Shown here in pieces: positions 15,181 to 27,062 of a stretch of DNA of 30,727 nucleotides. The stretch comes from a virus: positions 1 to 30,727 of the IMG/VR virus record IMGVR_UViG_3300034073_004624; one strand, 5' to 3'. The first letter of the stretch is position 1, and every line of letters starts with the position of its first letter. The notes below the pieces were generated by a model that was not told the DNA's origin, did no database searches, and worked only from the letters and a program-made list of their open reading frames with translations. Position numbers and translations under genes: made by a program.

Positions 15181-17346
15181 ATGAAACCGGTTCTAATCGT
15201 AGAAAATTCAACTTCTTCTCTTCTCAGAGAGAATAATAGTGGCAGAAAAGATTATGTGTTAGGTGGTACTTTTACAGAGTTTGGTGTTAAAAACCGTAAC
15301 GAAAGAGTATATACAGCAGATAAATTTCTTCCAGCATTAGATGAACTTAATGAGAGAATGAAAACGCTTGGTGCAGTTTACGGAGAATTCGATCATCCAG
15401 ATGTTTTTGATACATCTTTATCAAGAGCATCACACGTTATCACAAAGGCAGAATACTTAAAAGAATCCAATAAAGTTACTGGTGAAATCAGACTACTTAG
15501 TACATATTGGGGTAAAGAAGCTAAGTCTTTGGTAGATGATGGATGTCCTGTCTTCGTATCTTCAAGAGCGGCTGGTGTTACAGAGTCTGATGGTTCTGTT
15601 TCTCTAAAAAAATTGTTCACATATGACATCGTTGCTGACCCAGGTTTTGCTTCTGCAAAAATGAGTGTTAAAAGTCTTAACGAGTCACTTGGATACAACC
15701 CAAAATCTAACTTTAGGATATATGAAATGTCCGATGAGTCCAAAATAAATGAACTATTCAATATGAATAAAGATGAATTTGTAACAAAAAAACAATTAAC
15801 TGATTACTCTAAATATTTAGTTAATGAATTAGCTTCTACAAAGAAAGAAGTTAAGAGTGCAATTTCAAAAGGGAATATGAATCCTAAGAAATTGGAGCAG
15901 TTACTTGAATACTACGAAGAATTAAATAAGACAAACGGTCAAGTTGTTAAATACTTAGACTATTTGGCTGAGAAAGTACAAGTAATGGTAAATGAAAACA
16001 AGTCTTTAAAAGCGACTACTGATAAACTTATTAAACACAATGATTATTTAGCAGAGAATTTAGAAAAAGCGGTAAACTATTCTGAATACTTAGCAGAAAA
16101 TCTTGACAAAAACATTGAGTATTCTGAATACTTAGCAGAAAACTTAGATAGAAATATTTCTTATTCTGAGTATATCGCTGAAAATTTAGATAAAAACATT
16201 TCTTATTCTGAATACTTAGCAGAAAACTTAGATAAGAATATTGCTTACTCTGAGTATATCGCAGAAAACTTAGATAAGAATATCGCTTATTCTGAGTATA
16301 TCGCAGAAAACTTAGACAAAAACATTGGATATTCTGAATATTTAGCTGAGCATGTTGACAATTCAATTGCTTATTCTGAATATTTAGCTGAGCATGTTGA
16401 AGGTAACATCGCTTACTCTGAATACATTGCTGAACATTTAGATGATAACATTGCTTATTCTGAGTATATCGCAGAAAATCTTGATAAATCAATTTCTTAT
16501 CAGTCACTAATTACTGAAAAATTAAATGGTACAAGATTAAACGAAAATAATGATCATGACGCTTTACCTGGAGTAAATGTTGTTGGTATTGAAAATGTTG
16601 AAGATGCTGACAATGATGATAATTGTGGACCAGTTAAAAATAATGATGGAGACGATGATGATGCTGACTTAGCTGGTATCAGTCATGGTAATCCAGAAAA
16701 TAAATGGAATAAAGAAAATAATGATGGAGACGGTGATGCTGATGGAGATGCTGATGCTGATGCTGATGGAGACGGAGCTTATGGACATGATGGTGCACAT
16801 AACAACGCTCACTTAGAAGGTAACTCTGATTCTGAATTATCAAAATCTATTAATAAATTAATTGAAGAAGCTAAAAAACGTAAAGTTTCTGAAACAACTG
16901 ACTTGAATTTCTTAAAGTTCTTAAACAAGTCACAAGTTGATAGCTTTTATGCACTTACAGAGAGTGAACAAGAAACTGTTAAACTTCACATAAACGAAAG
17001 AAGTTATTTCACACAAAAAGAAGTATTGTCTCTAATTGCAGAAGCTTTGTCTACAAAGAATGAATCTATCGAAGAAAGAGTAATCAGATTGATGCCTGAA
17101 AACATTAAGCCAATCTGGAATCAGTTAAATGAGTCTTCTAAAAAATCAGTGCTTTCACAAGCTAGATTATATCCAGAAGATGTATTAAAAACTGAAAATC
17201 AAGTTGAACATTTCTGGTTAACCAGAAATCTCAAAAAAAATGAGTCTGTAACTAAAAAGTTAGTAGCACACGAAAGTTTAATACAAGAAGATAAACTTTC
17301 AGATAAAGATGTGAAAGCTATTATGGAAAGATTCAAAACAATTTAA
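15181..17346 (+). CDS. Prohead protease (gp21-like) fused to scaffold/core protein (gp22-like)
   Basis: 721 residues. Residues ~25-165 are a T4 gp21-type serine protease: VKNRNERVY, then GEFDHPD with catalytic His about 72, and VFVSSRAAG with Ser 127 or 128. The rest looks like an internal scaffold. Charged helices come first, then eleven 14-residue repeats of type YSEYLAENLDKNIA (286-439), a very acidic Asp/Gly/Ala segment (about 475-545) and a helical C-terminal domain. In T4, protease (gene 21) and scaffold (gene 22) are separate. Each repeat contains LAE or IAE, the T4 protease cleavage consensus (L/I)xE; IVE8-N9 and LRE17-N18 near the N-terminus are candidate self-processing sites. It lies between portal and capsid genes, exactly where 21 and 22 belong. 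Protease identity is confident; scaffold role is inferred from position and composition. Confidence 0.85.
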   Translation: MKPVLIVENSTSSLLRENNSGRKDYVLGGTFTEFGVKNRNERVYTADKFLPALDELNERMKTLGAVYGEFDHPDVFDTSLSRASHVITKAEYLKESNKVTGEIRLLSTYWGKEAKSLVDDGCPVFVSSRAAGVTESDGSVSLKKLFTYDIVADPGFASAKMSVKSLNESLGYNPKSNFRIYEMSDESKINELFNMNKDEFVTKKQLTDYSKYLVNELASTKKEVKSAISKGNMNPKKLEQLLEYYEELNKTNGQVVKYLDYLAEKVQVMVNENKSLKATTDKLIKHNDYLAENLEKAVNYSEYLAENLDKNIEYSEYLAENLDRNISYSEYIAENLDKNISYSEYLAENLDKNIAYSEYIAENLDKNIAYSEYIAENLDKNIGYSEYLAEHVDNSIAYSEYLAEHVEGNIAYSEYIAEHLDDNIAYSEYIAENLDKSISYQSLITEKLNGTRLNENNDHDALPGVNVVGIENVEDADNDDNCGPVKNNDGDDDDADLAGISHGNPENKWNKENNDGDGDADGDADADADGDGAYGHDGAHNNAHLEGNSDSELSKSINKLIEEAKKRKVSETTDLNFLKFLNKSQVDSFYALTESEQETVKLHINERSYFTQKEVLSLIAEALSTKNESIEERVIRLMPENIKPIWNQLNESSKKSVLSQARLYPEDVLKTENQVEHFWLTRNLKKNESVTKKLVAHESLIQEDKLSDKDVKAIMERFKTI
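16036..16497 (+). repeat. Eleven 42-bp (14-residue) scaffold repeats
   Basis: Eleven in-register copies encode a consensus YSEYLAENLDKNIA (the first is HNDYLAENLEKAVN; the eleventh ends DKSIS). All eleven keep (L/I)-A-E; eight are followed by Asn and three by His. Codons vary between copies, so the protein sequence, not the DNA, is being conserved. Confidence 0.9.
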
Positions 17347-21469: not shown

Positions 21470-21845
21470 GGGGAAGTGATAGAATAGATTCGCAGAGTGA
21501 GATCAATTATGCAGACATCGGTTGGTAAAATATCCGATTAATAAATTAGGTTACATCTGTCTTAAATGGCAAAACAAATGAAGTAGGAACCCGTGAAGAT
21601 TTAGTAGCGGCTCTACAAAACAACCTGTTCTTGGTAGAAGAACTAGAGACAGCTTAACAAAGCATCTCTAAAAAATTCTCCAACTGAATCACAACAGTTC
21701 ATAAAATAGTGAAACCTGAGTTGTTAGAATGGCGGGTAATTCAACTAACTATTTTGTGAGTTTAGAAAAACTTTCTAAGTCTGTGAATGAATAGTTTATT
21801 TTAACTGAGGAAGACACCAGGGGCGGTTCCTGGTCTTCTCCACCA
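21470..21845 (+). ncRNA. ssrA: Transfer-messenger RNA (tmRNA)
   Basis: 376 nt. The 5' GGGGAAG (21470-21476) pairs fully with CTTCTCC (21835-21841), followed by A and an encoded CCA. GATAGAATAGATTCGCAG matches the conserved 5' tRNA-like region of ssrA. TTCGCAGA (21489-21496) pairs with TCTGTGAA (21780-21787), giving the long helix joining the 5' and 3' domains. ATCGG/CCGAT (21517/21534) fits the first pseudoknot; TTAGAAA/TTTCTAA (21762/21772) a late hairpin. The tag frame probably starts at GGC 21568 (GKTNEV, compare Bacteroidetes tags starting GETN or GENN) and stays open for 29 codons to TAA at 21655, ending LETA rather than LAA. It frees stalled ribosomes with host SmpB (no smpB here). Odd: the T-arm stem ACCAGG/CCTGGT closes a loop GGCGGTT without the usual TTCRA. 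Confidence 0.88.
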
Positions 21846-21850
21846 CATTA

Positions 21851-21875
21851 AAAGTCCACTTTGGTGGACTTTTTT
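21851..21875 (+). terminator. Intrinsic terminator of tmRNA
   Basis: Stem AAAGTCCAC / GTGGACTTT, loop TTTG, followed by TTT, 5 nt after the encoded CCA end. Confidence 0.85.
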
Positions 21876-21896: not shown

Positions 21897-22379
21897 ATGA
21901 TAGATAAATTTGACGGTAAATACCGATTCTTAAGTAACTTTTATCCCTGTAAAATAGAACATCAGGGAATCACTTATCCAAGTGTGGAACATTATTATGT
22001 TGCAATGAAAGTCAATGATGAACAACTTATTAATGGTAAATATTACACTCCTGGTGATTTTAGAGAAATGATAAGTAGAGTAAAAGAAGCTGCCTTAGTT
22101 AAAAAAATTGGAAATAAAATTAAATTAAGATCTGACTGGGATAATAAAAAGTTAGATGTAATGAATTGGGCAATTAGAGAAAAATTCAAAGATGAGAATC
22201 TGAAGGAATTGTTACTTGGTACCGGTGATCAGGAACTTATTGAGGGAAATTTTTGGAAGGACTTTTTCTGGGGAGTTTGTAACGGTAGGGGCCAAAATCA
22301 TTTAGGTAAAATCTTAATGATAGTTAGAGATGAGATAAGAGGAATCAAAAAGACTGGATTGGAAGAGTTTCTTAAATAG
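21897..22379 (+). CDS. NADAR-family protein (YbiA-like ADP-ribose / N-glycosidase fold)
   Basis: 160 residues, the usual length of a single NADAR domain. FDGKYRFLSNFYPCKI (5-20), ITYPSVEHYYVAMK (25-38), RSDWDNKKLDVMNW, LLLGTGDQELIEGNFWKD and FFWGVCNGRGQNHLGKILM follow the family order, with the Glu of VEH and the Trp/Gly-rich end intact. NADAR proteins include YbiA and the partners of DarT-like toxins, which remove ADP-ribose from guanine bases in DNA. The family is also tied to NAD metabolism. In a phage it could undo host ADP-ribosylation defences or handle NAD breakdown products; this is inference. The gene follows the tmRNA terminator, has CATATAAATT upstream and lies 49 nt before the methylase gene. 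Confidence 0.85.
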   Translation: MIDKFDGKYRFLSNFYPCKIEHQGITYPSVEHYYVAMKVNDEQLINGKYYTPGDFREMISRVKEAALVKKIGNKIKLRSDWDNKKLDVMNWAIREKFKDENLKELLLGTGDQELIEGNFWKDFFWGVCNGRGQNHLGKILMIVRDEIRGIKKTGLEEFLK

Positions 22380-24692: not shown

Positions 24693-25220
24693 ATGATAAA
24701 CTCTAAGCCAAATAATTCAAATTACCATCAAGGTAATTATATACCAAAAAATAAAGATAAAGTCATCAAATTAAATAATTATGGTGGTGTTCACTTCAGG
24801 TCTTCTTGGGAAAAGAAAATTATGACCTGGCTTGATTACAATACTTCTATCACAAAATGGGGATCTGAATGTTTACGGATACCTTATCAAATGACACATT
24901 TTGATAATGGTGATACAAAAATTAAAGAACATTCTTATTATCCGGACTTTTACTATGAGATGAGACTTCCGGATGGTAGTTTAAGACAGGTTGTAGTTGA
25001 GGTTAAGCCAATGAAAGAGTATAAAATGGTTCAGAGTCTAAATGAAGGTAGTTTACAAGTTCCTCAGAATGGTGCGAAAAAACTTAAGAACTTTGAATAC
25101 GACTTAAAGATGGCTTATAAGAACAAGCAAAAATGGGAAACAATGATAAACTGGTGTAATAAAAAGGGTTACGATTTTATCATCATAACAGAGGAACATC
25201 TTAAAAAGTTCAACTTATAA
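24693..25220 (+). CDS. Head-completion protein, T4 gp4 (gp50)-like
   Basis: 175 residues, near the length of T4 gp4. YHQGNYIPKNKDKVI, then GVHFRSSWEKKIMTWLDYN, WGSECLRIPYQM, YYPDFYYEMR, VVVEVKPMKEY and a C-terminal KWETMINWCNKKGYDFIIIT with final TEEHLKKF follow the gp4 family order. PDFYY...EVK is a PD-(D/E)xK nuclease-type active site (Pro-Asp, then Glu-x-Lys). In T4, gp4 acts after DNA packaging to make heads competent for tail joining. The last 11 bases overlap the end of the reverse-strand membrane-protein gene. Confidence 0.85.
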   Translation: MINSKPNNSNYHQGNYIPKNKDKVIKLNNYGGVHFRSSWEKKIMTWLDYNTSITKWGSECLRIPYQMTHFDNGDTKIKEHSYYPDFYYEMRLPDGSLRQVVVEVKPMKEYKMVQSLNEGSLQVPQNGAKKLKNFEYDLKMAYKNKQKWETMINWCNKKGYDFIIITEEHLKKFNL

Positions 25221-25925: not shown

Positions 25926-27062
25926 ATGAAAATTAAACTTGAATACATTTGGTTAGATGGATCTAATCCCCAACAATTGCGAAGCAAAACTAAAATAACA
26001 AATCAACAGCATGGATTGGATGCAACAAAATATGATATCTGGTCTTTTGATGGTAGCTCAACAAATCAGGCTAAATCCGGTAAAGGAAAAAATACAGATT
26101 GTTTACTAAAACCAGTTTTTGTATCTGATGATCCATTCAGAGGAAGTCCACATAAATTGGTCCTTTGTGAGGTTCTTACTCCAGAAGGAAATCCACATCC
26201 TTCAAATCACAGAAGATCATTAGAAGCACTTTTAAACGAGTTGAATCTTGGAGGTGCAGATAAGTTTGCAGGAACTGATTGGTCAAATATATATGAATCC
26301 TTCAAAAAAGATTCGCCTTGGTTTGGATGGGAACAAGAATATACACTAACTCATAAACCAAATTCACCATTTTCGGCTGGTATTGGAATTCCTTTAGGAT
26401 TCTCATCAGACTATCACAATCCTATTAAGACACCTCGTCCTCAAGGCGATTATTATTGTGGTGTGGGTGCTGATACGGTTGTAGGTAGAGAAATCGTTGA
26501 GGAGCATATGGATAAATGTATAGAAATTGGTCTATGTATTTCTGGAATTAATGCTGAGGTGTTATTAGGTCAATGGGAATATCAAATTGGACCGGTTACT
26601 GCATTGAACGGATCTGATCAATTATGGATATCTCGATATATTCTTCAGAGAGTCGCTGAAAAGCACAATATAAATGTGTCTTTGCATCCAAAACCAATTA
26701 AAGGAGATTGGAACGGAACTGGTTGTCATGTCAATTTCTCAACAAAAGAAATGAGAGAAAAAGGTGGTTTATCTTTAATAAAAGAAACTATGGAAAAACT
26801 TAAAGAAAATCATAGAAATCATATCGAAGTTTATGGTCTACATAATGAAGAAAGATTGACTGGTGAACACGAGACCTCTGGTATTAATGATTTTAGCTTT
26901 GGATTTTCAACTCGTGATACTTCTATACGTATACCAGCTCAATCAATTATTGATGAAAGAGGATATTTTGAAGACAGGAGACCAGCCTCAAACTGCGATC
27001 CATATTTAGTTGCAGCTAGAATGTTAAAAACTGTTTACTCTGAAGTAAATCAAGAGGCTTAA
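25926..27062 (+). CDS. Glutamine synthetase, type II (GSII)
   Basis: 378 residues, full length for GSII. Makes glutamine from glutamate, ammonia and ATP. The N-terminal beta-grasp region has LEYIWLDGS, LRSKTK and WSFDGSSTNQAKS. The catalytic part has WFGWEQEYTL, YYCGVGADTVVGREIVEEH, GINAEVLLGQWEYQIGP, GDWNGTGCHVNFST, RLTGEHET, STRDTSIRIPA and FEDRRPASNCDPY. Metal-binding Glu residues, the His of the NGTGCHVN segment and the Arg residues of the phosphate site are all present, so it should be active. The type I adenylylation loop is absent, as expected for GSII, so regulation would differ from enteric GS. It is monocistronic, with an A-rich leader and strong terminator. An auxiliary metabolic gene that could raise glutamine supply for nucleotide synthesis during infection; host origin is likely but not tested. 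Confidence 0.95.
   Translation: MKIKLEYIWLDGSNPQQLRSKTKITNQQHGLDATKYDIWSFDGSSTNQAKSGKGKNTDCLLKPVFVSDDPFRGSPHKLVLCEVLTPEGNPHPSNHRRSLEALLNELNLGGADKFAGTDWSNIYESFKKDSPWFGWEQEYTLTHKPNSPFSAGIGIPLGFSSDYHNPIKTPRPQGDYYCGVGADTVVGREIVEEHMDKCIEIGLCISGINAEVLLGQWEYQIGPVTALNGSDQLWISRYILQRVAEKHNINVSLHPKPIKGDWNGTGCHVNFSTKEMREKGGLSLIKETMEKLKENHRNHIEVYGLHNEERLTGEHETSGINDFSFGFSTRDTSIRIPAQSIIDERGYFEDRRPASNCDPYLVAARMLKTVYSEVNQEA

Follow-up and report, generated by a model that had tools for sequence, protein, structure and literature searches.

A virus record of 30,727 bases, referred to here as the window, raises a testable question: when a virus takes over a cell, does it also decide the fate of unfinished proteins? 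The window contains a one-piece tmRNA-like gene on the plus strand (positions 21470 to 21845), belonging to a class of phage tmRNAs missed by the standard search programs. Its tag is built unlike the usual degron, and the frame that encodes it contains a paired RNA element. With improved models of such genes, tmRNA counts in large phages would be expected to change.

Identification of the tmRNA gene

Read from the acceptor 5′ end to an encoded ACCA, the gene has the architecture of a tmRNA. The acceptor 5′ strand GGGGAAG (21470–21476) forms 7/7 pairs with 21835–21841, and the 3′ strand CUUCUCC is followed by A73 and an encoded CCA (together 21835–21845). The 5′ side of an H2-type helix (21489–21516) consists of two helices pairing with 21805–21812 and 21779–21784, and is followed by a pseudoknot 1 (PK1)-like element (21517–21538) with the first stem AUCGG/CCGAU. 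Across 25 distinct copies, 98.1% of cells in the acceptor, T-stem, H2 and PK1 were paired, and 97 cells in these elements carried double changes, compared with 31.1 after shuffling. The two H2 helices were 99.3% and 100% paired, with double changes in 8 of 12 pairs, and the first PK1 stem was 97.6% paired; the long H2 and the PK1 expected of a tmRNA were recognised on the H2 helices and this first PK1 helix. A wider set comprised 45 distinct full copies with at least 6/7 acceptor pairs and with GGGG and TCCAC at their ends; in this set, picked in part on that very stem, all 45 had 7/7 acceptor pairs, G3.U70 and A73, as required for alanine identity. Their 3′ ends were ACAA (34 copies), ACTA (10) and ACCA (1, that of the window).

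The T-arm (21816–21834) has a six-pair stem, ACCAGG/CCUGGU, and a seven-nucleotide loop, GGCGGUU, instead of UUCRANY. Four of the six pairs were doubly changed among the copies, and a fully paired stem with a seven-nucleotide loop was found in 37 of the 45, the loop being mostly GGCRGUN. An acceptor-T stack usually comprises 12 pairs; the seven and six pairs here would give 13, one above the usual, though the extra A-U pair of the T-stem is not proven because it never changed to another pair. The UUCRANY loop is present in a single copy of the 45, that of the relative L027 (GAGGG-UUCGAAU-CCCUC). We regard this loop as typical rather than defining, because the mitochondrial tmRNA of Reclinomonas americana, which differs from the window gene in being organellar, likewise opens its T-loop with GG where UU is usual (PMC1168896). 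With a non-canonical T-loop, charging and the binding of SmpB or EF-Tu are not guaranteed.

The six-pair T-stem and GGCRGUN loop explain why software misses this family. ARAGORN called a tmRNA in none of 67 family loci (of 69, with L079 and L080 left out and some copies cut by the end of the stretch), and the window gene was called neither by ARAGORN nor by Rfam at its gathering threshold. A low-threshold Rfam search of the window returned chance-level matches and the tmRNA model RF00023 at 9.6 bits, which covered the 3′ end and skipped most of the model. Among nine family loci the RF00023 gathering cut-off, which is a detection threshold and not a biological feature, was reached solely by L027 (59.9 bits), and no other tmRNA exceeded the cut-off in ten records searched. 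L027 shares the tag, has a canonical T-loop and aligns along the whole gene (nhmmer, 2.3e-66, L027 itself being a row of that profile), whilst the copy in L041 gave a full-length, sub-threshold RF00023 match of 33.4 bits. On the grounds of the covariation, of L027 and of L041, the window gene is almost certainly a tmRNA, and in this the initial annotation was borne out.

Homologous loci

BLASTN searches of phage records retrieved LR756502 (642 kb) and LR745206 (about 635 kb) at 73–75% identity, and together with pattern scans of viral contigs (IMG/VR) yielded 34 homologous loci including the window. Part of these 34 had been gathered by tag-based patterns, which biases any estimate of core conservation; two further scans were therefore run with patterns lying outside the tag, and these returned 35 new loci, all 35 of which were homologous. 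The complete tag frame could be read in 64 of the resulting 69 loci, the other five being unreadable, with matches over part of the gene only. The loci are not independent viruses, since two pairs are pieces of one contig each and several contigs are near copies. TBLASTN searches of phage records with the tag peptide added no relatives to LR756502 and LR745206, and genome contigs scanned for the tag core gave no match. A literature search, limited in its full-text coverage, returned no paper describing this long tag.

The tag reading frame

The tag frame begins at GGC (21568–21570), as initially annotated, and runs for 29 codons, encoding GKTNEVGTREDLVAALQNNLFLVEELETA, to a first in-frame UAA at 21655–21657 (21568–21657 in all, plus strand). 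Alignments and the resume sites placed by ARAGORN in other tmRNAs converge on the same codon, and the sites are near identical (slash before the resume codon): TTTAAAT/GGCAATAC in Chitinophagales, TTAAAT/GGCAAAAC in a viral tmRNA (L004) and TTAAAT/GGCAAAAC in the window. U at -5 and A at -4, the positions named U85/A86 in the E. coli tmRNA (PMC2481249), were present in every row of two alignments, so that the gene has the conserved upstream UA and the frame open to a stop that are expected of a tmRNA. Because the frames in relatives were found with a pattern containing the upstream motif, the other copies support the resume codon through the alignments and through the lack of unreadable complete copies. 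That translation resumes elsewhere and the true tag is short is scarcely credible, and nothing was found in its favour: the upstream motif and first codons match those of Bacteroidota tmRNAs, and the frame is open in 45/45 distinct full copies, with the alternative frames open in 0/45 and 1/45, that is, closed in 44 to 45 of the 45. We are as good as sure that this is the correct frame.

All gaps within the tag were multiples of three in these 45 copies, which also bears on the suggestion that the gene is a decoy or pseudogene, a diverged and untranslated tmRNA that titrates SmpB or ribosomes. The unusual T-loop would suit such a role, and there is a precedent in the RNA of phage DS6A, consisting of a tRNA-like domain (TLD) only, for which it has been proposed (PMC4131195; PMC11915505). 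Against it stand the universally open frame with its in-frame indels, the compensatory changes throughout the RNA and the SmpB encoded by the same phages, and we consider a decoy very improbable.

The unusual length of the tag and the absence of an LAA end, both pointed out in the initial annotation, proved to be conserved traits of the family. The 64 complete frames gave 35 distinct tags, all of 27–30 residues (29 residues in 20, 27 in 11, 30 in three and 28 in one), and the tag-independent scans agreed, with 30/30 new complete frames being long as well. The commonest length of a tmRNA tag is 10 (PMC11915505), and that of the window is approximately three times the usual. The last residue was V in 21 distinct tags and A in 14; none of the 35 ended in AA, hence none carries a ClpXP degron of the LAA type, whilst eight tmRNAs called in the genomes searched from Bacteroidota and other bacteria had tags of 9–10 residues ending in LAA, MAA or AAA. 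The start of the tag, GNT or GKT, resembles that of Bacteroidota tags.

A hairpin within the tag frame

Within the frame lies a hairpin (21585–21614) in which 21585–21587 pair with 21612–21614 and 21591–21594 with 21607–21610. Of the cells for its seven pairs, 97.5% were paired and 43 showed double changes, compared with 12.3 after shuffling, and its covariation score was 0.518 versus 0.212 shuffled and at most 0.147 for slid versions of the hairpin. All seven pairs were formed in 31 of 40 distinct tag DNAs, and five or six pairs in the other nine, which include all six tag DNAs of the Lys/Asn-Phe type. The hairpin links the codons CGU/GCG, AGU/GCU and AAA or AAU/UUU, so that Arg-Ala, Ser-Ala, Lys-Phe and Asn-Phe vary together in the tag peptide. 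Covariation of this strength means that these residues are fixed in part by RNA pairing, and that the conservation of the tag core is partly that of an RNA.

It could accordingly be argued that the length of the tag is a matter of RNA entirely: the extra hairpin would stabilise the mRNA-like region or tune the passage of the ribosome, the added residues would have no function, and host proteases would still degrade tagged proteins through their small hydrophobic C-terminus. Apart from the residue changes driven by the hairpin, this reading draws on the C-terminal part of the tag, which is variable among copies and weakly constrained as a peptide (synonymous fraction 0.404 versus 0.260 when permuted, with 16 of 300 permutations as high), and on the hydrophobic last residue of usual tags (PMC4131195). 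The tag core answers differently, in that third codon positions varied more than second positions (0.143 versus 0.028 in the first 25 copies, a set partly collected by tag) and the E, D and V of an xED.V motif were unchanged in 35/35 distinct tags. An explanation by RNA alone is possible, although we give it a clear minority of the weight, and we infer that the long tag has been selected partly as an RNA, through the hairpin, and partly as a peptide.

Position of the stop codon and origin of the extension

In ordinary tmRNAs the stop codon lies in the loop of helix 5 (PMC1168896). Folding placed the stop of the window gene at the loop of a similar hairpin (21644–21670), with 21644–21655 pairing with 21660–21670. 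In single-sequence folding, 43 of the 45 copies had five or more pairs around the stop, compared with 28.4 of 45 expected from shuffling, a modest excess; because shuffles often enclose the stop, the test discriminates weakly. The extra codons lie upstream of this stop hairpin and carry the covarying hairpin described above.

These positions bear on how the extension arose. LVAA does occupy codons 12–15 of the window tag, as had been noted, and it had been proposed from this that the tag originally stopped there and that loss of this stop left the degron inside it. That history was not supported and was dropped, the stop being still at the helix-5 position with the extension upstream of it, and LVAA being found in 17 of the 35 distinct tags, with LVFA, LVAT, LVAC, IVSA and others elsewhere. 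The simplest history appears to be that codons were inserted after the tag start, ahead of helix 5. The same observations weaken the idea that the tag, its degron having become internal, spares tagged proteins from host proteolysis. In its favour, no distinct tag ends in LAA or AA, as the short bacterial tags with LAA, MAA or AAA ends do, and the long tags of Mesoplasma are described as evading most E. coli proteases (PMC9382460). However, LVAA is not conserved, and every tag has A or V as its last residue, with both LVA and AAV appearing in a review's list of degradation-tag variants, AAV as a slower one (PMC9382460). We judge sparing to be improbable.

SmpB and Clp partners

A search of 39 records of relatives, the window record not among them, found SmpB, the protein partner of tmRNA, above its cut-off in five, including all four over 300 kb. 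Four of the five formed one phage clade in the SmpB tree (support 100/99; the fifth was left out of the tree), and the best matches of the phage proteins were to Marinimicrobia, at up to 53%. No bacterial donor is claimed, since the phage clade is on a long branch and its neighbours are weakly resolved. Two genes from a phage SmpB, a frame in L078 (2456–2938) carries a WCGPCK thioredoxin-type motif, read from the sequence.

A Clp ATPase (AAA_2) was encoded in 4 of 15 records, these being all four over 300 kb. The nearest solved structure to the ATPase of LR756502 (L169) was ClpC, with a match starting after the ClpC N-domain, and the protein stayed below the cut-off of each of the 25 NCBIfam families listed. 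ClpP was found in 9 of the 15 records and in three of the four over 300 kb, one copy (L161) scoring above the equivalog cut-off that NCBIfam sets for ClpP. Three records, LR756502, LR745206 and one of 476 kb, had ClpP together with a Clp-type ATPase. The ClpP-family genes L161–L167 derive from LR756502, LR745206 and two contigs, with three and two genes in the huge phages, and the head maturation protease of the window (15181–17346) is separate from them. Searches of seven phage records found neither the ClpX zinc domain nor Lon (PF05362, 0/7, phage genomes only), and no Clp gene was found among the scanned ORFs of the 30.7-kb window. In LR756502 more than 100 kb separate the tmRNA gene from those for SmpB, ClpP and the Clp ATPase, and the tag is linked to the SmpB and Clp genes by co-occurrence alone.

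Proposed fate of tagged proteins

Taken together, the window gene is best explained as ssrA, the tmRNA gene, of a huge phage like LR756502 and LR745206, with a long tag that most likely directs proteins to an altered proteolytic route, an explanation that we consider quite probable as a whole. The RNA would be charged with alanine, bound by the phage's own SmpB and admitted to stalled ribosomes, which would read on across the internal hairpin as far as the UAA and release proteins ending in A-GKTNEV...ELETA. Working ribosome rescue of this kind is, as predicted from sequence, very probable.

Past that step the tag would send proteins to a route other than host ClpXP, or one less efficient in it, and possibly to a phage Clp machine. 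This is proposed because the end is not of the AA type and because the large relatives encode SmpB, a ClpC-like ATPase lacking the N-domain, and ClpP. We lean towards altered or slower proteolysis because of the small hydrophobic, non-LAA C-terminus, its weak sequence constraint and the Clp ATPase and ClpP of the large relatives, and because LVA and AAV serve as degradation tags, the latter slower, and Lon reads the long tags of Mesoplasma. For an altered fate itself we put the chances as evenly balanced, whilst a phage Clp machine as the receiver of the tag is a tentative and rather doubtful prediction. The weak peptide constraint argues against a precise C-terminal degron; a weakened one may still be present, because the last residue is always A or V. 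Rescue with redirected proteolysis is thus the reading that we would favour over sparing. In its fullest form, the prediction would be a private line of rescue and disposal in huge Bacteroidota phages, in which a tmRNA with a rebuilt T-arm is read mainly by phage SmpB, and its tag, poorly read by host ClpXP, is read by the phage ClpC-like ATPase with ClpP, the tag frame serving also as an RNA element whose hairpin links distant residues; that every part of this would hold is unlikely.

Comparison with other tmRNAs

The closest bacterial likeness was to the one-piece tmRNA of Chitinophagales in the Bacteroidota (L176, L177 and L179; tag GNTQYAMAA), which shares the GGGG acceptor start and CTCC end, a resume context of TAAAT/GGC or close to it, first residues of the GN/GK-T type and, in single-sequence folding, a stop in the hairpin after the tag. 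It differs in its nine-residue tag ending in MAA, in a canonical UUCGACU T-loop and in having no extra in-frame hairpin with codons beyond. Another viral tmRNA (L004, 3842–4167; L006, 2024–2349), for which ARAGORN gave the 19-residue tag GKTKNVPVIEMITEMRAAA, has the PK1 motif, the resume context and a lengthened tag in common with the window family, but has a canonical T-loop, passed Rfam at 77.7 bits, ends in AAA and is without the NEVGTxED core.

Mycobacteriophages of the Bxz1 group have a tmRNA with a long tag ending in ALV. Theirs is likewise a phage-borne ssrA (PMC4131195), in another phage and host group. The tags of Mycoplasma and Mesoplasma are also lengthened and changed at the C-terminus, together with a switch of protease, Lon being their reader; that of Mesoplasma ends in NYAFA (PMC9382460). 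The window family differs from this type, since none of its 35 distinct tags has a YAFA-type end and Lon is absent from the seven records searched. In huge phages, tmRNA and SmpB have been reported by Al-Shayeb et al. 2020, who called tmRNAs with ARAGORN, the program that misses the window family; the main text of that paper has no occurrence of Clp, and no description of the long tag was found in its available text (PMC7162821).

Genomic setting

The tmRNA gene is followed by an intrinsic-terminator-like hairpin, AAAAGUCCAC-UUUG-GUGGACUUUU (21850–21873, plus strand), and a similar hairpin with a T-run lies 3′ of 24 of 25 copies. A TANNTTTG motif, which we take to be the Bacteroidota -7 promoter motif, was found upstream of 17 of the 25 copies compared with 2.17 after shuffling, and is absent at the window copy. 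Based on these flanking signals, the gene is probably its own transcription unit. The huge-phage paper assigns predicted hosts in the Bacteroidetes to all five of its genomes longer than 634 kb (PMC7162821).

Directly downstream of the tmRNA gene is a NADAR-domain gene (21897–22379), a homologue of which was found in 18 of the 26 related loci searched, and the portal protein and head protease encoded in the window also had close matches in relatives. In L008 (1391–4086) there are two neighbouring homologues of the 446-residue window protein upstream of the tmRNA. Elsewhere in the window, 24693–25220 encodes a protein with a TnsA-like endonuclease N-terminal domain, homologues of which occur in L033 and L020, and 25926–27062, downstream of the phage structural genes, encodes a glutamine synthetase-like protein (Gln-synt_C, Gln-synt_N).
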